64,000 nt of DNA from Streptomyces sp. NBC_00536 (lineage in GTDB: Bacteria; Actinomycetota; Actinomycetes; Streptomycetales; Streptomycetaceae). Position 1 is the stretch's first letter, and every line of letters begins with the position of its first letter. A model generated the notes under the pieces. That model was given only the letters and a program-made list of their open reading frames with translations. It searched no databases and was not told the origin of the DNA. Made by a program: the position numbers and the translations under genes. The stretch lies in the NCBI RefSeq assembly GCF_036346295.1, contig NZ_CP107819.1:1984001-2048000 (forward strand), in the 5' to 3' direction. Below, piece after piece: positions 17,748 through 60,998 of the stretch.

Positions 17748-18956
17748 TCATGTGCCGGTCGCCGCGCGCGCCGCGCGACCCACCCTGATCTGCGCGGACG
17801 CGCACAGGACGGCCACCCCGGCGCCGCCCGCGAGCAGGGCGCACAGCGGCCAGAGCAGGCCGGGCGCGGCGGCGTACAGGGCCCCGCCGAGCGGCGGGGC
17901 GAGCACCACCCCGCTGACCGAGACTCCGGCGTACAGACTCTGGAAGCGGCCGATGGCGTGCTCGGGGGCCTGGTCCGCCATGTAGGCGGTGGCGGTGGTC
18001 TTGTAGAGGATCTCGCCGAGGCTCACCAGCAGCATCATCGCGGCCGTGCTCGCCACTGAGGCCCCGAGGAGCAGGGCCGCGTACCCCGCCCCCACCAGGA
18101 CCAGTCCGGCGCCGATGACGCGCAGCGGCGGGCGGGCGCGCAGGGCGACGGCGGCGGGGAGTTCCAGCAGCATGACGACGGCGCCGTTCAGGGCGATGGC
18201 GAAGCCGAAGACGCGGGCGTCGAGGCCGTGGTCGGCGAGGAAGACGGGGAAGGCGGAGTACTGCTGGCGGTAGACGAAGTCGACGGCCAGGATCGCGCCG
18301 AGCAGCAGGAGTACGGCGGGCCGCGCGCGCAGTTCGGACCAGAGGCCGCCGCGGCCCGGACCCCCGTCCCGGGCCGCGGCGGAGCGTGCGGCGCCGCGGG
18401 CCGGGACGGCCCGGGCGGTCCACAGGGCGAAGCCGAGGGTGCCGATGCCGTCGCAGACGAAGAGCCAGTCGTACGAGACGGCGGTGGCGACCAGGGCGCC
18501 GAGCGGCGGGCCGATGATGAAGCCGCCGTTGGAGGCGCTGCGCACGACGGCGTAGGCCTGGCGGCGGGAGCCTTCGGGGACGGTCACGGCGACCAGCGCC
18601 CCGTTGGCGGCGCGGATCACCCCGGCGGCGTACTGGGCCAGCGGCAGGGCGGCGAACAGCAGCGGCGTGGGCAGCAGCGGGAAGGCCATCAGGACGAGCC
18701 CGCCGAGGCCGGAGGCGGTCAGCAGCACCCGGCGGTGGCCGAAGCGGTCGCCGTACCAGCCGCCGGTGAAGTTCCCGGCGACCATGCCGATGCCGCCGAG
18801 GCCGGTGACCAGCCCGGCCTCGGTGACCGCGAGGCCGCGCGGTCCGGTCAGGTACAGGAAGACGAAGACGAAGGTGAAGCTGACGACGGCGTTGACGAAC
18901 ACCCCCGCCGCCAGCAGCCACACCACACGTGGCACGTCCTTGAATCCCCGCAGCAT
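17748..18956 (-). CDS. Major facilitator superfamily transporter
   Basis: The 402-residue protein has about 12 hydrophobic helices and the MFS loop 2-3 signature (G-N-F-T-G-G-W-Y-G-D-R-F-G-H-R-R). It starts at ATG 18956 (MLRGFKDVPRVVW); the frame extends upstream but with no coding character. It most resembles drug-efflux MFS proteins; the substrate is unknown. It is divergent from the HxlR-peroxiredoxin fusion gene, with 101 bases between the starts that contain two inverted repeats. Control of the exporter by that regulator is therefore likely by position. Confidence 0.88.
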   Translation of the reverse strand: MLRGFKDVPRVVWLLAAGVFVNAVVSFTFVFVFLYLTGPRGLAVTEAGLVTGLGGIGMVAGNFTGGWYGDRFGHRRVLLTASGLGGLVLMAFPLLPTPLLFAALPLAQYAAGVIRAANGALVAVTVPEGSRRQAYAVVRSASNGGFIIGPPLGALVATAVSYDWLFVCDGIGTLGFALWTARAVPARGAARSAAARDGGPGRGGLWSELRARPAVLLLLGAILAVDFVYRQQYSAFPVFLADHGLDARVFGFAIALNGAVVMLLELPAAVALRARPPLRVIGAGLVLVGAGYAALLLGASVASTAAMMLLVSLGEILYKTTATAYMADQAPEHAIGRFQSLYAGVSVSGVVLAPPLGGALYAAAPGLLWPLCALLAGGAGVAVLCASAQIRVGRAARAATGT

Positions 18957-18994
18957 GTCCGCCCCCGGCTTTCGTTCTGAGTCACTCCGAGTCA

Positions 18995-19028
18995 GTTCCT
19001 TTTGGGAACGGACTATGTCAGCATGACA
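18995..19028. promoter_or_regulatory. Two inverted repeats between the MFS gene and the HxlR-peroxiredoxin gene
   Basis: GTTCC-N5-GGAAC occupies 18995-19009 and TGTCA-GCA-TGACA occupies 19016-19028; both are perfect. They lie 30-63 bases before the regulator start and 38-72 bases before the MFS start. HxlR/DUF24 proteins bind such dyads at divergent promoters, so these are the likely operators. Confidence 0.6.
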
Positions 19029-19057
19029 GCCTCGGGTCAACGGACAAAGGAGTGCCC

Positions 19058-19957
19058 ATGGCCCAGCGCACCCAGCTCGGCGACGCCGACTGCGCCATCG
19101 CCCAGGCCCTCGACGTCGTGGGCGACTGGTGGACGCTGCTGATCGTGCGCGACAGCGCGCGCGGTCTGCACCGGTTCGAGGAGTTGCAGCGCGAGCTGGG
19201 CATGTCACGCAAGGTGCTGAGCGAGCGGCTGCGGCTGCTCGTCGAAGCGGGCGTGCTCACGCGCGAGCCGTACCAGGAACGTCCGGTGCGGCACGAATAC
19301 CGGCTGACCCCGCGGGGGCGGGCGCTGCTGCCGGTGCTGGTGGCCCTCCAGGACTGGGGGGACGCCTGGATCCTGGGAGAGGGAGAGATGACGGCGACCG
19401 CCGACGAGGCCTCGCGGGAGGCGGCGCGCGTGCACGCACTCAAGGGCACGCGGGTACCGGAGCTGCTGCTGCCGGACGGTTCCGGGGCGCTGCGCGACCC
19501 GGTCGCGGACAGCCCGTACACCGTTCTGTACTGCTTCCCCGGCGCCTACGCCCGCGCCGAGTCCTACCCGCCCGGCTGGGCCGGGATCCCGGGGGCCAAG
19601 GGCTGCACGCTGGAATCCTGCACCTACCGCGACCAGCTGGCCGAGTTCACGGCGGCGGGGGCGACGGTGCACGGCGTCTCGACCCAGCGCCCGGACGAGC
19701 AGCGGGAGTTCGCCCGGGCCGAGGGGCTGCGCTTCCCGCTGCTCTCGGACGCGGGGCTCTCGCTGGTGGCGGCGCTGCGGCTGCCGACCTTCCGGGCGGC
19801 GGGGGTGAGCCGGCTCAAGAGGCTCACCCTGGTGGTGGCGCGGGACCGGACCGTCGTCGAGACGATCTATCCGGTTACGGACATCGAGGCGAGCGTCACG
19901 GCCGCGCTCGCGGCCGTCCGGGCGGCCTCCGCGCAACCCAGCCCCGCCGGCGTTTGA
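19058..19957 (+). CDS. HxlR/DUF24-type regulator fused to a PrxQ-type peroxiredoxin
   Basis: The 299-residue protein combines two domains. Residues 1-105 are an HxlR/DUF24 winged helix (L-D-V-V-G-D-W-W-T-L-L-I-V-R-D and S-R-K-V-L-S-E-R-L) with C12 at the position used as redox sensor in YodB, HypR and QorR. Residues about 125-290 are a thioredoxin-fold redoxin with the BCP/PrxQ motif K-G-C-T-L-E-S-C-T-Y-R-D, giving C183 as probable peroxidatic and C188 as probable resolving cysteine. ATG 19058 has AAGGAG five bases upstream. It is probably a cytosolic one-chain peroxide/thiol-stress sensor controlling the divergent MFS gene (inference). The last residues (S-P-A-G-V) and the stop come from a dispersed repeat. 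Confidence 0.85.
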   Translation: MAQRTQLGDADCAIAQALDVVGDWWTLLIVRDSARGLHRFEELQRELGMSRKVLSERLRLLVEAGVLTREPYQERPVRHEYRLTPRGRALLPVLVALQDWGDAWILGEGEMTATADEASREAARVHALKGTRVPELLLPDGSGALRDPVADSPYTVLYCFPGAYARAESYPPGWAGIPGAKGCTLESCTYRDQLAEFTAAGATVHGVSTQRPDEQREFARAEGLRFPLLSDAGLSLVAALRLPTFRAAGVSRLKRLTLVVARDRTVVETIYPVTDIEASVTAALAAVRAASAQPSPAGV

Positions 19958-20066
19958 GGCGCCCCCGGAGAGCCAAACCGGCCGCACCGCACCAGGATCG
20001 ATCGCGCTCAAACGCCGCGCGGGCTGATGTCGCCTCCGGCGGGCCCTCAAACGCCGGGCAGGCTGG
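19941..20066. repeat. Dispersed intergenic repeat copies (GCCGGCGTTTGAGGC core)
   Basis: One copy on the plus strand (about 19941-19962) supplies the stop codon of the HxlR-peroxiredoxin gene. Two diverged copies lie on the other strand (about 20005-20026 and 20043-20066). The same core occurs at 37137-37160 and twice in 60798-60912. It is a familiar Streptomyces intergenic sequence of unknown function. Confidence 0.75.
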
Positions 20067-20194
20067 AATTGCCCTCCGGGCGACTGGAACACCGGGGTGC
20101 GCTCAGCCGGCGACGGGCCGGAGCACCGCTGGAATTGCCCTCCGGGCGGCTGGAACACCGAGGCGCCCTCAGCCGGCGGCCGGCCGGAGCACCC
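20063..20194. repeat. 66-bp direct tandem duplication overlapping the tetR-type 3' end
   Basis: Two adjacent 66-bp units (20063-20128 and 20129-20194), both beginning CTGGAATTGCCCTCCGGGCG, are alike at most positions. The second covers the stop and the last codons of the TetR gene, so the gene's 3' end has been copied downstream. Confidence 0.8.
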
Positions 20195-20735
20195 GGGACA
20201 GGACCTCGCGGGCGTAGGCCTCGTCGTAGTCGGCCCCCGTCAGCAGCACCTGGAGGCCGATCCCGTCCAGCACCGCCACCAGCGCCCGCGCCGTCACCGG
20301 ATCGGTGCGTTCCGCGAGGATGGCGGCCACCGCCTCGCCCCACTCCGCGGCCACCGGCCGCAGCGCGGGGCGGCGCAGGGCGGCCAGGTACAGCTCGTAC
20401 TCCAGCTCCACCCGCCCCCGGTCCGCCGCCAGCGTCCCGCCCAGCACCCGGGCCAGCGCGGCCGCCAGGTCGCCCGCCGGGTCCGCCAGATCGGGGCTCT
20501 GCGCCAGCGCCCGGGCGAAGCCCTCGTTGGCCTGGCGCAGGGCCGCGACCAGGAGTTCGTCCAGGGTCTTGAAGTGGTAGGTCGTCGAGCCGAGCGGTAC
20601 GTCCGCGGCGGCGGCCACGCTGCGGTGCGTCAGCCCCGCGATCCCCTTGTCGCCGACGATCCGGATCGCCGCGTCGATGATCCGCTGCCGCCGCTCGGGG
20701 TCGTACCGGCGCACGCCCCCGGCGCCCGGGCCCAT
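20169..20735 (-). CDS. TetR-family regulator of the adjacent SMR pump
   Basis: The 188-residue protein has a TetR N-terminal helix-turn-helix (about residues 15-60; I-I-D-A-A-I-R-I-V-G-D-K-G and Y-H-F-K-T-L-D-E-L). The C-terminal ligand domain resembles the R-L-E-L-E-Y-E-L-Y type seen in efflux regulators. It starts at ATG 20735, which shares one base with the SMR stop (TGATG), so the two are translationally coupled. The palindrome upstream of the SMR gene is the likely operator, giving a self-regulated pump-repressor operon. Confidence 0.9.
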   Translation of the reverse strand: MGPGAGGVRRYDPERRQRIIDAAIRIVGDKGIAGLTHRSVAAAADVPLGSTTYHFKTLDELLVAALRQANEGFARALAQSPDLADPAGDLAAALARVLGGTLAADRGRVELEYELYLAALRRPALRPVAAEWGEAVAAILAERTDPVTARALVAVLDGIGLQVLLTGADYDEAYAREVLSRVLRPAAG

Positions 20736-21055
20736 CAGTGCGCCCCGCCCACGTTCAGCAGGACCACACCACCGATGACCAGCGCTATCCCGGCGATCTT
20801 CGCGGCGGTGGCCGGTTCGCCCATGAAGACCATGCCGATCGCGGCGATGGCGGCGGTGCCGACCCCGGCCCAGATCGCGTACGCCGTGCCGACCGACAGG
20901 GTCTTCAGCGTCTGCGCGAGCAGGGTGAAGGCGATGACGTAGCCGAGCAGGGTCCCGAGCGAGGGCCACAGCCGGGTGAACCCGTCGCTGAACTTCATGG
21001 CGGTGGTCCCGGCCACCTCGGCGGCGATGGCTGCGGCGAGCAGTACGTACGGCAT
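20735..21055 (-). CDS. Small multidrug resistance (SMR) family efflux protein
   Basis: The 106-residue protein has four membrane helices and the SMR hallmark glutamate E13 in the first helix (A-A-E-V-A-G-T-T-A-M-K). It also has the helix-3 motif A-Y-A-I-W-A-G-V-G-T. These proteins are proton-coupled dimeric exporters of cationic drugs or guanidinium-type compounds. I chose ATG 21055 (MPYVLLAAAIAAE) over an upstream extension because it begins the first helix. The operator-like palindrome ends only eight bases before it, so the message is probably leaderless or nearly so. It is the first gene of a two-gene operon with tetR. Confidence 0.92.
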   Translation of the reverse strand: MPYVLLAAAIAAEVAGTTAMKFSDGFTRLWPSLGTLLGYVIAFTLLAQTLKTLSVGTAYAIWAGVGTAAIAAIGMVFMGEPATAAKIAGIALVIGGVVLLNVGGAH

Positions 21056-21063
21056 GCGTACAA

Positions 21064-21085
21064 GGGTACACATCGTTGTGTACCC
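21064..21085 (-). promoter_or_regulatory. Palindromic operator for the SMR-TetR operon
   Basis: GGGTACACA-TCGT-TGTGTACCC is a perfect 22-bp inverted repeat with 9-base arms, followed by a third half-site GTACACA at 21088-21094. Its position just before the SMR start would let bound TetR block transcription. Confidence 0.75.
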
Positions 21086-21114
21086 CCGTACACATCCATG
21101 CCCAGCCGGGTCGG

Positions 21115-22494
21115 CTAGCCGACCGTGAACCAGCCCGAGCGTGACTTCTTCCACTCCGGGTGCGTCAGGTCCTTGGCCGCGATCCCGTCCCCGTACAGGT
21201 CCGCCGAACCGCAGTCGGTGATCAGCTGCACCCGCGCCCCGGGCACGTTCAGGTCCGGCACGTCGACGATGGCCTCCCAGCCGCCCGCGTCACTGGTCGG
21301 CAGGTCGGTCCGCTTCACCGGGGCGTGCCCGGGAACCCCGTCCCAGGAGTAGAGGGCGTAGGGGTCGGTGTTGTCATCGGCGGCCCAGGAGCCCGCCAGG
21401 ATCAGGTACTGGTCCGCCGCGTTCTTGCGGATGTCACGGATCGCGAGCCCGCCCAGGTCCAGCTCGATGCCCGGCCCGAAGACGGCCTTGGCGCCGCTCG
21501 CGAGCACCCTGTCGAAGTTGGTCACCGGCACGATCAGGGCCTTGCCGCCGGGGACGGCGGGCGCCAGCGGCGCGCGGAAGCCCAGGTAGGCGGTGGTGGT
21601 GGAGCCGGGCGCGAACTCCAGGCCCTCCACGTTGAACCCGTCGATCTGCTTGGGCGCCTGACCCGCGGCGGTGCCCGCGGCGAAGCCGTAGCGGTTGCCG
21701 TTCGCCGTGTCCCAGGCGACCAGGTCGTCGCGGAGCTTCGCGTACGAACGCCCGTAGGCGAGCTGCGTGGTGGAGCCGGACCCGCTCACGGTCGTGGTGA
21801 ACACCGTGTTCCGGGGGGCCTTGTACTCGCCGTCCTTGTTGTTGCCGAGCGAACCGGTCCAGTAGATGGTGTCGCCGATGCGCGTGGCGCCCTCGATGTC
21901 CACCTCCTTGGTGACCCCGAGCTGCGCGCTGAAGTCCCAGGTCCTGACGGGCGCCCCGGACGCGGAACGGTCGTACATCCGCAGCACGTTGGACTCGTCG
22001 TCGGCGACGACGGTGTAGCCGCCGCCGACGTCCACGGCGGCCGAGGCGTCCGAGGATCCGGTCAGATAGCGGGCGTCGGCCGGGTTCTGCACGGCCGCCG
22101 AGGCCGCGTAGGACAGGGTCTTGGTGGCGCTCTTGCCGCCCAGACCGGTCACCTTGACGGTGAGGTTGGTGTAGCCGCGGCCGCGCGCGGTGACGGCGAG
22201 CTGCCGGACCGCTCCGGCCCCGGTGACGGTCACGTCGCCGGTCCCGGCCACCGAGGACGTGCTCGATGCGGACGCGCTGACGGTGAGCGCCGAGACGTCG
22301 GCGCCGCTCTGCGCGACGGTGACGTTGACCAGCGGGTCGCCGACCCCGCCGACGGCGCCGGAGAGGTATCCGGCGGACAGCGCGATGGTCGGCGTGCCGT
22401 ACGTCGCCGCCTGCGCGGGCATGTTCATCAGGCCGGCCAGCATCAGCGCGGCGATCCCCGCGGTACCCAGCCGCTTCTGCGTCTGCTTCTTCAT
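21115..22494 (-). CDS. Secreted DUF3616-like protein, downstream paralogue of a tandem pair
   Basis: The 459-residue protein has a Sec signal peptide (MKKQTQKRLG, then a hydrophobic core; A-Q-A near residue 30). A short Ig-like/adhesin-type region follows (about 35-140, A-L-S-A-G-Y-L-S-G-A-V). The DUF3616-like repeat region comes next (about 155-455, S-S-D-A-S-A-A-V-D and V-V-A-D-D-E-S-N-V-L-R). The start ATG overlaps the stop of the upstream paralogue by four bases (ATGA), and the stop lies inside a 14-bp palindrome. The extracellular role is unknown; a beta-propeller structural or binding role is only a guess. Confidence 0.8.
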   Translation of the reverse strand: MKKQTQKRLGTAGIAALMLAGLMNMPAQAATYGTPTIALSAGYLSGAVGGVGDPLVNVTVAQSGADVSALTVSASASSTSSVAGTGDVTVTGAGAVRQLAVTARGRGYTNLTVKVTGLGGKSATKTLSYAASAAVQNPADARYLTGSSDASAAVDVGGGYTVVADDESNVLRMYDRSASGAPVRTWDFSAQLGVTKEVDIEGATRIGDTIYWTGSLGNNKDGEYKAPRNTVFTTTVSGSGSTTQLAYGRSYAKLRDDLVAWDTANGNRYGFAAGTAAGQAPKQIDGFNVEGLEFAPGSTTTAYLGFRAPLAPAVPGGKALIVPVTNFDRVLASGAKAVFGPGIELDLGGLAIRDIRKNAADQYLILAGSWAADDNTDPYALYSWDGVPGHAPVKRTDLPTSDAGGWEAIVDVPDLNVPGARVQLITDCGSADLYGDGIAAKDLTHPEWKKSRSGWFTVG

Positions 22495-23906
22495 CGAGTT
22501 CCCCCACGGACGGAATTGAGCGTGAACCATGCGGACCGGGACTTCTTCCACTCCGGGTGGCCGAGGTCCTTGGCCTCGGTGCCGTCGCCGTACAGGTCGG
22601 CGGAGCCGCTGTCGGTGATCAGCTGGACGCGGGCGCCGGGCGCCCGCAGGTCGGGCACGGCGACCACCGCTTCCCAGCCACCGGGGTCGGTGGTGGGCAG
22701 GTCGAGCCGCTTCTTCGGCGCGTGGCCGGGGACCCCGTCCCAGGAGTAGAGGGCGTAGGGGTCGGTGTTGTCGTCGGCGGCCCAGGAGCCCGCCAGGATC
22801 AGGTACTGGTCCGCCGCGTTCTTGCGGATGTCACGGATGGCGAGCCCGCCCAGGTCCAGCTCGATGGCCGGCCCGAAGACGGCCTTCGCCCCCTTCGCCA
22901 CCACCTGGTCGATGTTCGTGACGGGCACGATCAGGGCCTTGCCGCCGGGGACGGCGGGCGCCAGCGGCGCGCGGAAGCCCAGGTAGGCGGTGGTGGTGGA
23001 GCCGGGCGCGAACTCCAGGCCCTCCACGTTGAACCCGTCGATCCGCTTGGGGACCTGCCCGGCGGCGGTGCCCGCGGCGAAGCCGTAGCGGTTCCCGTTC
23101 GCCGTGTCCCAGGCGATCAGGTCCTCGCGCAGACCCTTGTACGCGGCGGTGAAGGTGACCTCGGTGGCGGCGCCGCTGCCGGTGATCTTCGTGGTGAAGA
23201 GCGTGTTGCGGTCCGCCTTGTACTTGCCGTCCTTGTTGTTGCCGAGCGAACCCGTCCAGTAGACGGTGTCGCCGACCCGGGCGGCGGCCTCGATGTCGAC
23301 TTCCTTCTTCACGCCGAGCGCGGCGCCGAGGTCCCAGGTCTTGACCGGCGCGCCGGACCGGGAACGGTCGTACAGCCGCAGCACGTTGGTCTCGTCGTCG
23401 GCCACCAGCGCGTACCCGCCGCCCGCGTCCACGGCCGCCGAGGCGTCCGAGGAGCCGGTGAGGTAGCGCGTGCCCGCCGCGCCGCCGCTCACCCGCGCCG
23501 AGGCGGCGTAGCCGAGGGTGGCGGTGGCCGTCTTCCCGCCGCGCCCGGTGACCTGGACCGTCAGCTCGGTGTAGCCCCGCCCGCGCGGGCGCACGGTCAG
23601 CTCGCGCCCGCCCCGGGTGCGGTCGATGCGTACGTCGCCGGGCGCGGCGACCGCCGGATTGCTGGAGGCGATGACGCTGACCTTGAGCTGTGCTCCGGGC
23701 GCCCCGGCCTGCGTGACGTCCACGCCGACCCCCGGGTCTCCGACCGCGCCGACGGCGCCCGACAGGTACCCGGCGGAGAGCGCGATGGTCGGCGCGGGCG
23801 CCTCCGCCGCGAAGGCGGGCGCGGTGAGCCCGGCGACGAGCAGGGCCGCGGCCCCGGCGGCTCCCACGGCGCCCAGGCGGCGTGCCGGTGCGGGACGAAG
23901 GTTCAC
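22491..23906 (-). CDS. Secreted DUF3616-like protein, upstream paralogue of a tandem pair
   Basis: The 471-residue protein starts at GTG 23906 with a GAGAGG site before it. It has a Sec signal peptide with A-F-A-A near residue 33. Its layout matches the downstream copy: an Ig-like N-terminal part, then the S-S-D-A-S-A-A-V-D and V-A-D-D-E-T-N-V-L-R-L-Y region and a shared C-terminal half that ends in H-P-E-W-K-K-S-R-S. The C-terminal coding region is almost identical in DNA to its neighbour while the N-terminal region differs. Function unknown; it is the first gene of the two-gene unit. Confidence 0.8.
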   Translation of the reverse strand: MNLRPAPARRLGAVGAAGAAALLVAGLTAPAFAAEAPAPTIALSAGYLSGAVGAVGDPGVGVDVTQAGAPGAQLKVSVIASSNPAVAAPGDVRIDRTRGGRELTVRPRGRGYTELTVQVTGRGGKTATATLGYAASARVSGGAAGTRYLTGSSDASAAVDAGGGYALVADDETNVLRLYDRSRSGAPVKTWDLGAALGVKKEVDIEAAARVGDTVYWTGSLGNNKDGKYKADRNTLFTTKITGSGAATEVTFTAAYKGLREDLIAWDTANGNRYGFAAGTAAGQVPKRIDGFNVEGLEFAPGSTTTAYLGFRAPLAPAVPGGKALIVPVTNIDQVVAKGAKAVFGPAIELDLGGLAIRDIRKNAADQYLILAGSWAADDNTDPYALYSWDGVPGHAPKKRLDLPTTDPGGWEAVVAVPDLRAPGARVQLITDSGSADLYGDGTEAKDLGHPEWKKSRSAWFTLNSVRGGTR

Positions 23907-24026
23907 GGGGGGTCCTCTCGACTGCTGCGCCGCCAGGACATGACGGCCGTCGAGAAGATTCGGCCACCGTGGCCAACTCCCGGTGCACGCGGCCCGTCCG
24001 CCGGGAGAACAGCGGCCCCCGGAAAG

Positions 24027-24064
24027 CACGGGACCCCCCGCACTCGCGTGCGGGGGGTCCCGTG
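24027..24064 (-). terminator. Terminator of the suf operon
   Basis: A perfect 17-bp stem (24027-24043 with 24048-24064) and a 4-base loop lie 24 bases past the stop of the last suf-operon gene on the minus strand. Confidence 0.85.
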
Positions 24065-24087
24065 TCAAAAATCTGCGATCAGACCGG

Positions 24088-60685: not shown

Positions 60686-60998
60686 GGCATCAGCCTACTT
60701 GCGGGGTGTGACAACAGGGGCCTACCCACCGGGCCCGACCCACCCCAGCCCCGCCGGGCGGACCACGGCAGCGAATTCCAGCCCACCCCGGCCCACTCCA
60801 GCCCCGCCGGCGTTTGAGGCGCGGGGTCCGGGCCCGACCCCATCCAGCCCCGCCGGGCGGACCACGGCAGCGAATTCCAGCCCCGCCGGCGTTTGAGGCG
60901 CGGGGTCCGGGGCGGAGCCCCGGCGGCGGCGCCGCACCCGGCACCCGGACGGGGCCCGGCCGTCTGCCCGACGACCGGACCCCACCCCCGCCGGGCGG
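60686..60998. repeat. Intergenic block of dispersed repeats
   Basis: This 313-base gap contains no gene. Unit A (begins CAGCCCCGCCGGGCGG, ends GCGAATTCCAGC) occurs at about 60745-60782 and 60844-60881. Unit B (begins CCAGCCCCGCCGGCG, continues through TTTGAGGCGCGGGG) occurs at about 60798-60832 and 60877-60912. These are the same elements as at 19941 and 37137. Confidence 0.8.

Follow-up and report, generated by a model that had tools for sequence, protein, structure and literature searches.

The stretch of Streptomyces sp. NBC_00536 DNA analysed here (64,000 nucleotides, henceforth the window) carries on its plus strand, at 19058-19957, a single open frame (ATG at 19058, stop at 19957) for a 299-residue protein that joins an HxlR/DUF24 winged helix to a peroxiredoxin-fold domain. 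The winged-helix part covers approximately residues 1-110 (19058-19387) and matches PF01638 (HxlR) over residues 20-105 with an E-value of 2e-25 and a score of 88.9 bits against a cut-off of 20.8. The peroxiredoxin-fold part comprises residues 125-299 (19430-19954) and matches both PF00578 (AhpC-TSA, residues 181-266, E 5.2e-12) and PF08534 (Redoxin, residues 182-279, E 1.4e-7). A structure model likewise predicts a peroxiredoxin fold for the C-terminal domain, and its pLDDT of less than 50 for residues 1-12 suggests an unstructured arm with C12 at its edge. Three cysteines matter for what follows: C12 (codon at 19091-19093), C183 (19604-19606) and C188 (19619-19621), all encoded on the plus strand. 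On the minus strand, at 17748-18956, lies a divergent gene for a 402-residue MFS transporter (PF07690, E 6.7e-42), separated from the fused gene by the 101 bases from 18957 to 19057. A first-pass annotation of this DNA had described one 299-residue ORF composed of a DUF24-type DNA-binding domain and a redoxin, had placed the three cysteines correctly according to the ORF translation and had recognized a divergent MFS gene 101 bases away, all of which is borne out by the single frame and the Pfam matches.

The fusion/MFS pair is adjoined by a gene for a TetR-type regulator (20169-20690, minus strand) and a gene for SMR multidrug efflux (20735-21154, minus strand), such that two efflux modules with differing regulators are neighbours. 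Two further minus-strand ORFs of 478 and 525 residues (21115-22551 and 22491-24068) are adjacent and alike and nearly blank to Pfam, one having no match and the other a weak match to DUF3616.

A frameshift or an assembly error joining two genes, or absence of the fusion from relatives, had been named in the first-pass annotation as grounds for abandoning its reading, and neither was found. The one open frame and the 146 fused loci that we read (130 distinct after collapsing identical proteins) rule out a frameshift or assembly join, and, out of 245 genomes of the order, 80 carry a nearly full-length match by our hand count of those listed. Of the 396 genomes in a sample spanning the phylum, 3 hold such a match, among the matches listed; a sample spanning the class, with 394 genomes, yields 20 with a match at an E-value of 1e-45 or better, one of which is partial. 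Holders of the fusion include, by name, Streptomyces, Catenulispora, Embleya, Kitasatospora, Streptacidiphilus, Actinoallomurus, Actinophytocola and Actinokineospora, among others. The fusion is therefore genuine and recurrent across many actinomycetes. All 120 homologues of set I (the best 120 of 2311 at E <0.001, counting the window protein itself) combine PF01638, PF08534 and PF00578, and residues were counted over 360 proteins, i.e. sets I, II and III with 120 homologues each. The 130 distinct loci, whose upstream stretches were likewise collapsed to 130, were divided by identity to the window protein into tier A (74-100%, n=95), tier B (approximately 56-64%, n=23) and tier C (approximately 50-55%, n=12). 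Three fused-gene copies (L182, L183 and L184) are apparently broken, being either interrupted or partly devoid of the DNA-binding half. The architecture already has a name in the databases, where proteins of sets II and III are entered as 'DNA-binding HxlR family transcriptional regulator/peroxiredoxin'; in open PMC text, judged by titles and opening lines of abstracts, we found no functional study of the fusion.

Which residues of the two halves are kept? C12 is present in 358 of the 360 proteins (the exceptions being two short fragments without that stretch) and in 130/130 loci, and C183 is present in 360/360 proteins and 129/130 loci, the lone exception being a glycine in one tier C locus. 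R255 (360/360) and E186 (359/360) are equally constant. A peroxidatic cysteine accompanied by a conserved arginine can thus be assigned, putatively, to C183 and R255. C188 occurs in 120/120 proteins of set I, 26/120 of set II and 0/120 of set III, corresponding by locus to 94/95 in tier A, 1/23 in tier B and 0/12 in tier C. Residue 188 is instead R (43), T (18), V (12), L (9) or others in set II, and R in 117 proteins of set III. Other cysteines come and go: C159 is found in 117, 90 and 0 of the 120 proteins of sets I, II and III, respectively, while a cysteine occurs at 289 in 97/120 of set III and at 208 in 31/120 of set II. In tiers B and C, C12 and C183 are the two cysteines present in nearly every member. 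Since C188 is confined largely to the window's clade, the C-x4-C pair is a trait of one clade. The PrxQ-type label given in the first-pass annotation is weakened. The window protein has the C-x4-C spacing between C183 and C188 (the latter a putative resolving cysteine) and the predicted peroxiredoxin fold, but lacks the PxxxT/SxxC active-site motif of PrxQ/BCP peroxiredoxins: it has alanine three residues before C183, a position at which only 27 of the 360 proteins have Thr or Ser. The NCBIfam PrxQ/BCP equivalog cut-offs are also missed widely (40.1 bits versus 260 and 33.5 versus 140), and C188 is missing from 94/120 proteins in set II and 120/120 in set III. Peroxide reactivity may be low because the usual catalytic threonine is missing. 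The peroxiredoxin domain is likely to exert redox control, given how rarely the reactive cysteine and the arginine vary.

Neither half yields a tree that rejects a single origin of the fusion (p-AU of 0.17 and 0.64; both are quick trees in which 20 forks are open). Among 11 stand-alone HxlR relatives, 10 have, as read by eye, a cysteine-rich, zinc-ribbon-like tail at the place of the peroxiredoxin. The HxlR half has PDB relatives in PA1607 (2f2e), 4gcv and YybR (4a5m), of which PA1607 and 4gcv are the nearest solved ones by sequence (E 2.5e-28 and 6.4e-28); with 146 and 168 residues, neither has a matched peroxiredoxin domain, unlike the fusion. Stand-alone redoxins are 37-48% identical to the C-terminal domain, among the rows listed. 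The actinobacterial ones (L095, L104, L110 and others) differ from the fusion in having no DNA-binding half, and those that we read share with it the long loop, C183 and C188, with the motif GCTPE/QSC. BcpB (5epf) and AhpE of Mycobacterium tuberculosis are also stand-alone proteins, unlike the fusion; BcpB has a threonine ahead of the cysteine (TPGC) that the fusion lacks, and AhpE works with mycothiol, a pairing to which one PDB title points. A Streptomyces redoxin without the DNA-binding half (L181) is 67% identical to the window's peroxiredoxin domain, is divergent from an MFS gene homologous to that of the window (61% identity) and nests with clade A in the tree (support 99), a pattern as after secondary loss of the DNA-binding half.

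The intergenic region contains, at 18990-19014, a 25-bp palindrome (AGTCAGTTCC-TTTTG-GGAACGGACT) that we regard as a putative operator and whose core AGTTCC-N5-GGAACT is kept in the fused loci. At least 10 of the 12 core bases are found upstream of 123 of the 130 distinct fused loci (A 91/95, B 23/23, C 9/12), compared with 20/2600 dinucleotide shuffles (A 16/1900, B 0/460, C 4/240) and 1/125 downstream stretches, a test that is not blind since the pattern was drawn from the same loci and the related genomes are not independent. In tier A, counted over 90 loci, complementarity at the three outer AGT/ACT pairs amounts to 79-94%, and two copies of the palindrome are frequent in tier B and C loci. 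Outside the order, at least 10/12 bases are matched in three of six loci (L216, L217 and L220, for the last of which only about 310 bases upstream are available) and not in L215, L218 or L219, the last with a fused gene devoid of its N-terminal part. Among the 11 stand-alone HxlR relatives, a related palindrome (at least 10/12) lies upstream of four (L093, L094, L096 and L103) and is absent from seven. With a wider regulon in mind, we scanned the genome (9.15 Mb, 4 contigs) for AGTTCCNNNTNGGAACNNACT, which has one exact match, at this locus; apart from a reverse match that overlaps it, seven further sites carry 2 mismatches, and the reversed-pattern control gave 1 and 1. Two perfect dyads had been pointed out in the gap as sites for the regulator, and both can be read there: GTTCC-TTTTG-GGAAC at 18995-19009, which is the core of the 25-bp palindrome, and TGTCA-GCA-TGACA at 19016-19028. 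As candidate sites they part company, the first being supported by the 123/130 loci while the second shows no conservation as a dyad: its arms stay perfect and in register in 25 of 90 tier A relatives (the loci, out of 95, with the palindrome and sufficient flank to enter this count), leaving it unsupported as an operator.

The second dyad overlaps a putative extended -10 promoter directed toward the MFS gene (19012-19040, minus strand), with a -35 element TTGACC at 19040-19035, a spacer of 17 bp and a -10 element CATAGT at 19017-19012 preceded by TG. This was the sole promoter-like site detected by scanning 18900-20170, and in the window's clade the palindrome overlaps its -10/+1 region. Of the 91 tier A loci that have the palindrome and sufficient flanking sequence, 74 carry a promoter of the type TTGACC-N17/18-CATAGT across it, versus 0/910 flank shuffles, the rule having been set after viewing these loci so that the promoter counts are not blind. 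Under a slightly looser rule the promoter is present in 71 of the 81 loci that have the MFS gene versus 4 of 14 in which the MFS gene is absent or fragmentary, and the palindrome itself is retained in 11 of those 14. A palindrome that is kept when the promoter is mostly gone along with the MFS gene is as expected of an autoregulated gene, and these promoter and palindrome counts are our best evidence for repression of the MFS gene and for action on the fused gene itself. The MFS-type promoter rule fails in tier B (3/23, control 20/230) and tier C (0/9, control 0/90), and no plus-strand promoter lies over the palindrome in any of the three tiers. Nor is there support for a -10 box that would serve the fused gene from a position immediately 3' of the palindrome (2/91, 1/17 and 1/7 versus 63/2920 at random).

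The gene divergent from the fusion differs between tiers. Tier A loci carry a homologue of the window's MFS gene in 81 of 95 cases, the 14 others having it absent or fragmentary. In tier B (n=23) the neighbour is of the MFS_3 type in 16, an ABC-2 permease in six and a contig end in one, and in tier C it is an enolase gene in 8 of 12, the other four being varied or unassigned (tier B and C labels were assigned by BLAST, against eight neighbours scanned with Pfam or against kin of these). Outside the order, a divergent MFS gene is present in four of six loci (L215, L217, L218 and L219), that of L218 sharing 47% identity with the window's across 345 residues. An MFS gene is thus not always beside the fusion, as the first-pass annotation had considered it might be. 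The palindrome is kept across the tiers even as the divergent gene changes from the window's MFS type to a different MFS, to an ABC-2 permease or to an enolase; at least 10/12 of its bases lie upstream in all eight enolase loci (L171-L173, L175 and L177-L180). A fused regulator divergent from an enolase gene is a candidate for redox control of glycolysis in Streptomyces. Such an arrangement is on record: in S. coelicolor, sco7639 is divergent from the enolase gene sco7638, as in those tier C loci, the window's partner being by contrast an exporter, and in S. lividans the SCO7639 and SCO7638 products are more abundant under phosphate proficiency (PMC9739823). The authors propose positive control, invoking an effector or a post-translational modification for S. 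coelicolor, and the passages on SCO7639 make no mention of a peroxiredoxin (PMC9739823). SCO7639 is tabulated as MarR family; judging from the enolase arrangement, we infer that it belongs to the tier C fused family, so that proteomics had likely noted a relative already.

How might the fused protein act? The fusion, its conservation, the palindrome and the overlap with the putative promoter can be read directly from the sequences. From these, the fused protein probably controls the adjoining exporter gene, and local repression of both the divergent gene and itself is supported by sequence in the window's clade. The regulatory role and exporter control proposed in the first-pass annotation therefore stand at the sequence level, in the form of a conserved palindrome on a conserved MFS-directed promoter. 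We favour, with doubt and confidence about evenly balanced, a one-component local regulator. The protein would bind the 25-bp palindrome between the two divergent genes, cover the -10/+1 region of the MFS promoter and so silence the exporter, and also control its own gene. The peroxiredoxin-fold domain would be the sensing module, in place of the zinc-ribbon-like tail of most stand-alone HxlR relatives that we read. C183 would react with peroxide or another oxidant, and the oxidised state would be passed to the DNA-binding part, perhaps via C12, via C188 (in this clade) or via an AhpE-like mixed disulfide with mycothiol, upon which the operator would be released; the choice among these disulfides is a guess, as is the nature of the exported compound. 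The activation that the authors of the SCO7639 study propose is a point against reading the protein as a repressor (PMC9739823).

A stricter version, in which a single chain relays the signal, strikes us as unlikely though worth spelling out. Here C183 would be oxidised and its sulfenic acid resolved by C12, which would have taken over this role where C188 is lost, in most of tier B and all of tier C, with the switch re-aimed at other exporters and a spare enolase. Transfer from C183 to C12 is possible, and the pair is a candidate relay. The conservation of C12 is no demonstration of one, because C12 is equally kept in the stand-alone HxlR relatives (11/11). Equally doubtful, in our judgement, is the opposite case of an ordinary DUF24 electrophile sensor, in which C12 alone would sense quinones, aldehydes or disulfide stress and the peroxiredoxin would be an appendage for dimerisation or recycling, outside the signal. 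C12 aligns with position 14 of YybR (4a5m; by alignment offsets of 11 to 13), which we take to be HypR, and it is this cysteine that the stand-alone relatives retain without any fusion. HypR (YybR) and YodB of Bacillus subtilis are MarR/DUF24 thiol sensors that share with the fusion the HxlR winged helix and a matching N-terminal cysteine but have no fused peroxiredoxin, and C101 of YodB has no counterpart noted in the fusion (PMC10458429, PMC6943732). Modification under thiol stress is described for HypR Cys14 and CatR Cys7 (PMC6943732). A mere spacer, however, is hard to square with near-invariant C183, R255 and E186.

We consider it improbable that the chain simply does two jobs, as a peroxidase that autoregulates its own gene with no signal between the domains and whose neighbour varies because the enzyme is the part that is kept. 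This would suit the persistence of the fused gene in the 14 of 95 tier A loci with the MFS gene absent or fragmentary, and the L181 redoxin that stays beside an MFS gene with no HxlR half; it sits poorly with the missing active-site threonine, with the loss of C188 throughout set III and from most of set II, and with the conserved MFS-directed promoter under the palindrome in clade A. Least probable of all, given C183 in 360/360 proteins and 129/130 loci, is a peroxiredoxin fold turned into a binding pocket for an exported or metabolic ligand (e.g. a glycolytic or antibiotic molecule) with no redox sensing, even if the loop before C183 is long and of a length that differs between tiers and the divergent genes vary between exporters and enolase.

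A relay in which a peroxiredoxin oxidises a transcription factor is difficult to demonstrate when the two are separate proteins, as they are in the yeast relays. Here the two are fused and the fusion is conserved, a putative operator is defined and the constant cysteines are few, which makes the relay idea testable with three point mutants. If the relay were true, a peroxiredoxin and its target transcription factor would be united in one molecule. The redox-responsive local regulator that we favour also supplies candidates for the regulator, operator and promoter of a common Streptomyces exporter, and for a redox link to a second Streptomyces enolase.

The 3' end of the fused ORF lies in a repeat. 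A 21-bp element, CAGCCCCGCCGGCGTTTGAGG, holds its end codons and stop at 19939-19959 and recurs in the window at 60799-60819 and 60878-60898. Across the genome, CAGCCCCNCCGGCGTTTGAGG has 163 matches (88 on the plus and 75 on the minus strand) versus 0 and 0 for the reversed-pattern control; among the matches listed, they lie mostly on the plus strand before approximately 4.4 Mb and on the minus strand beyond.
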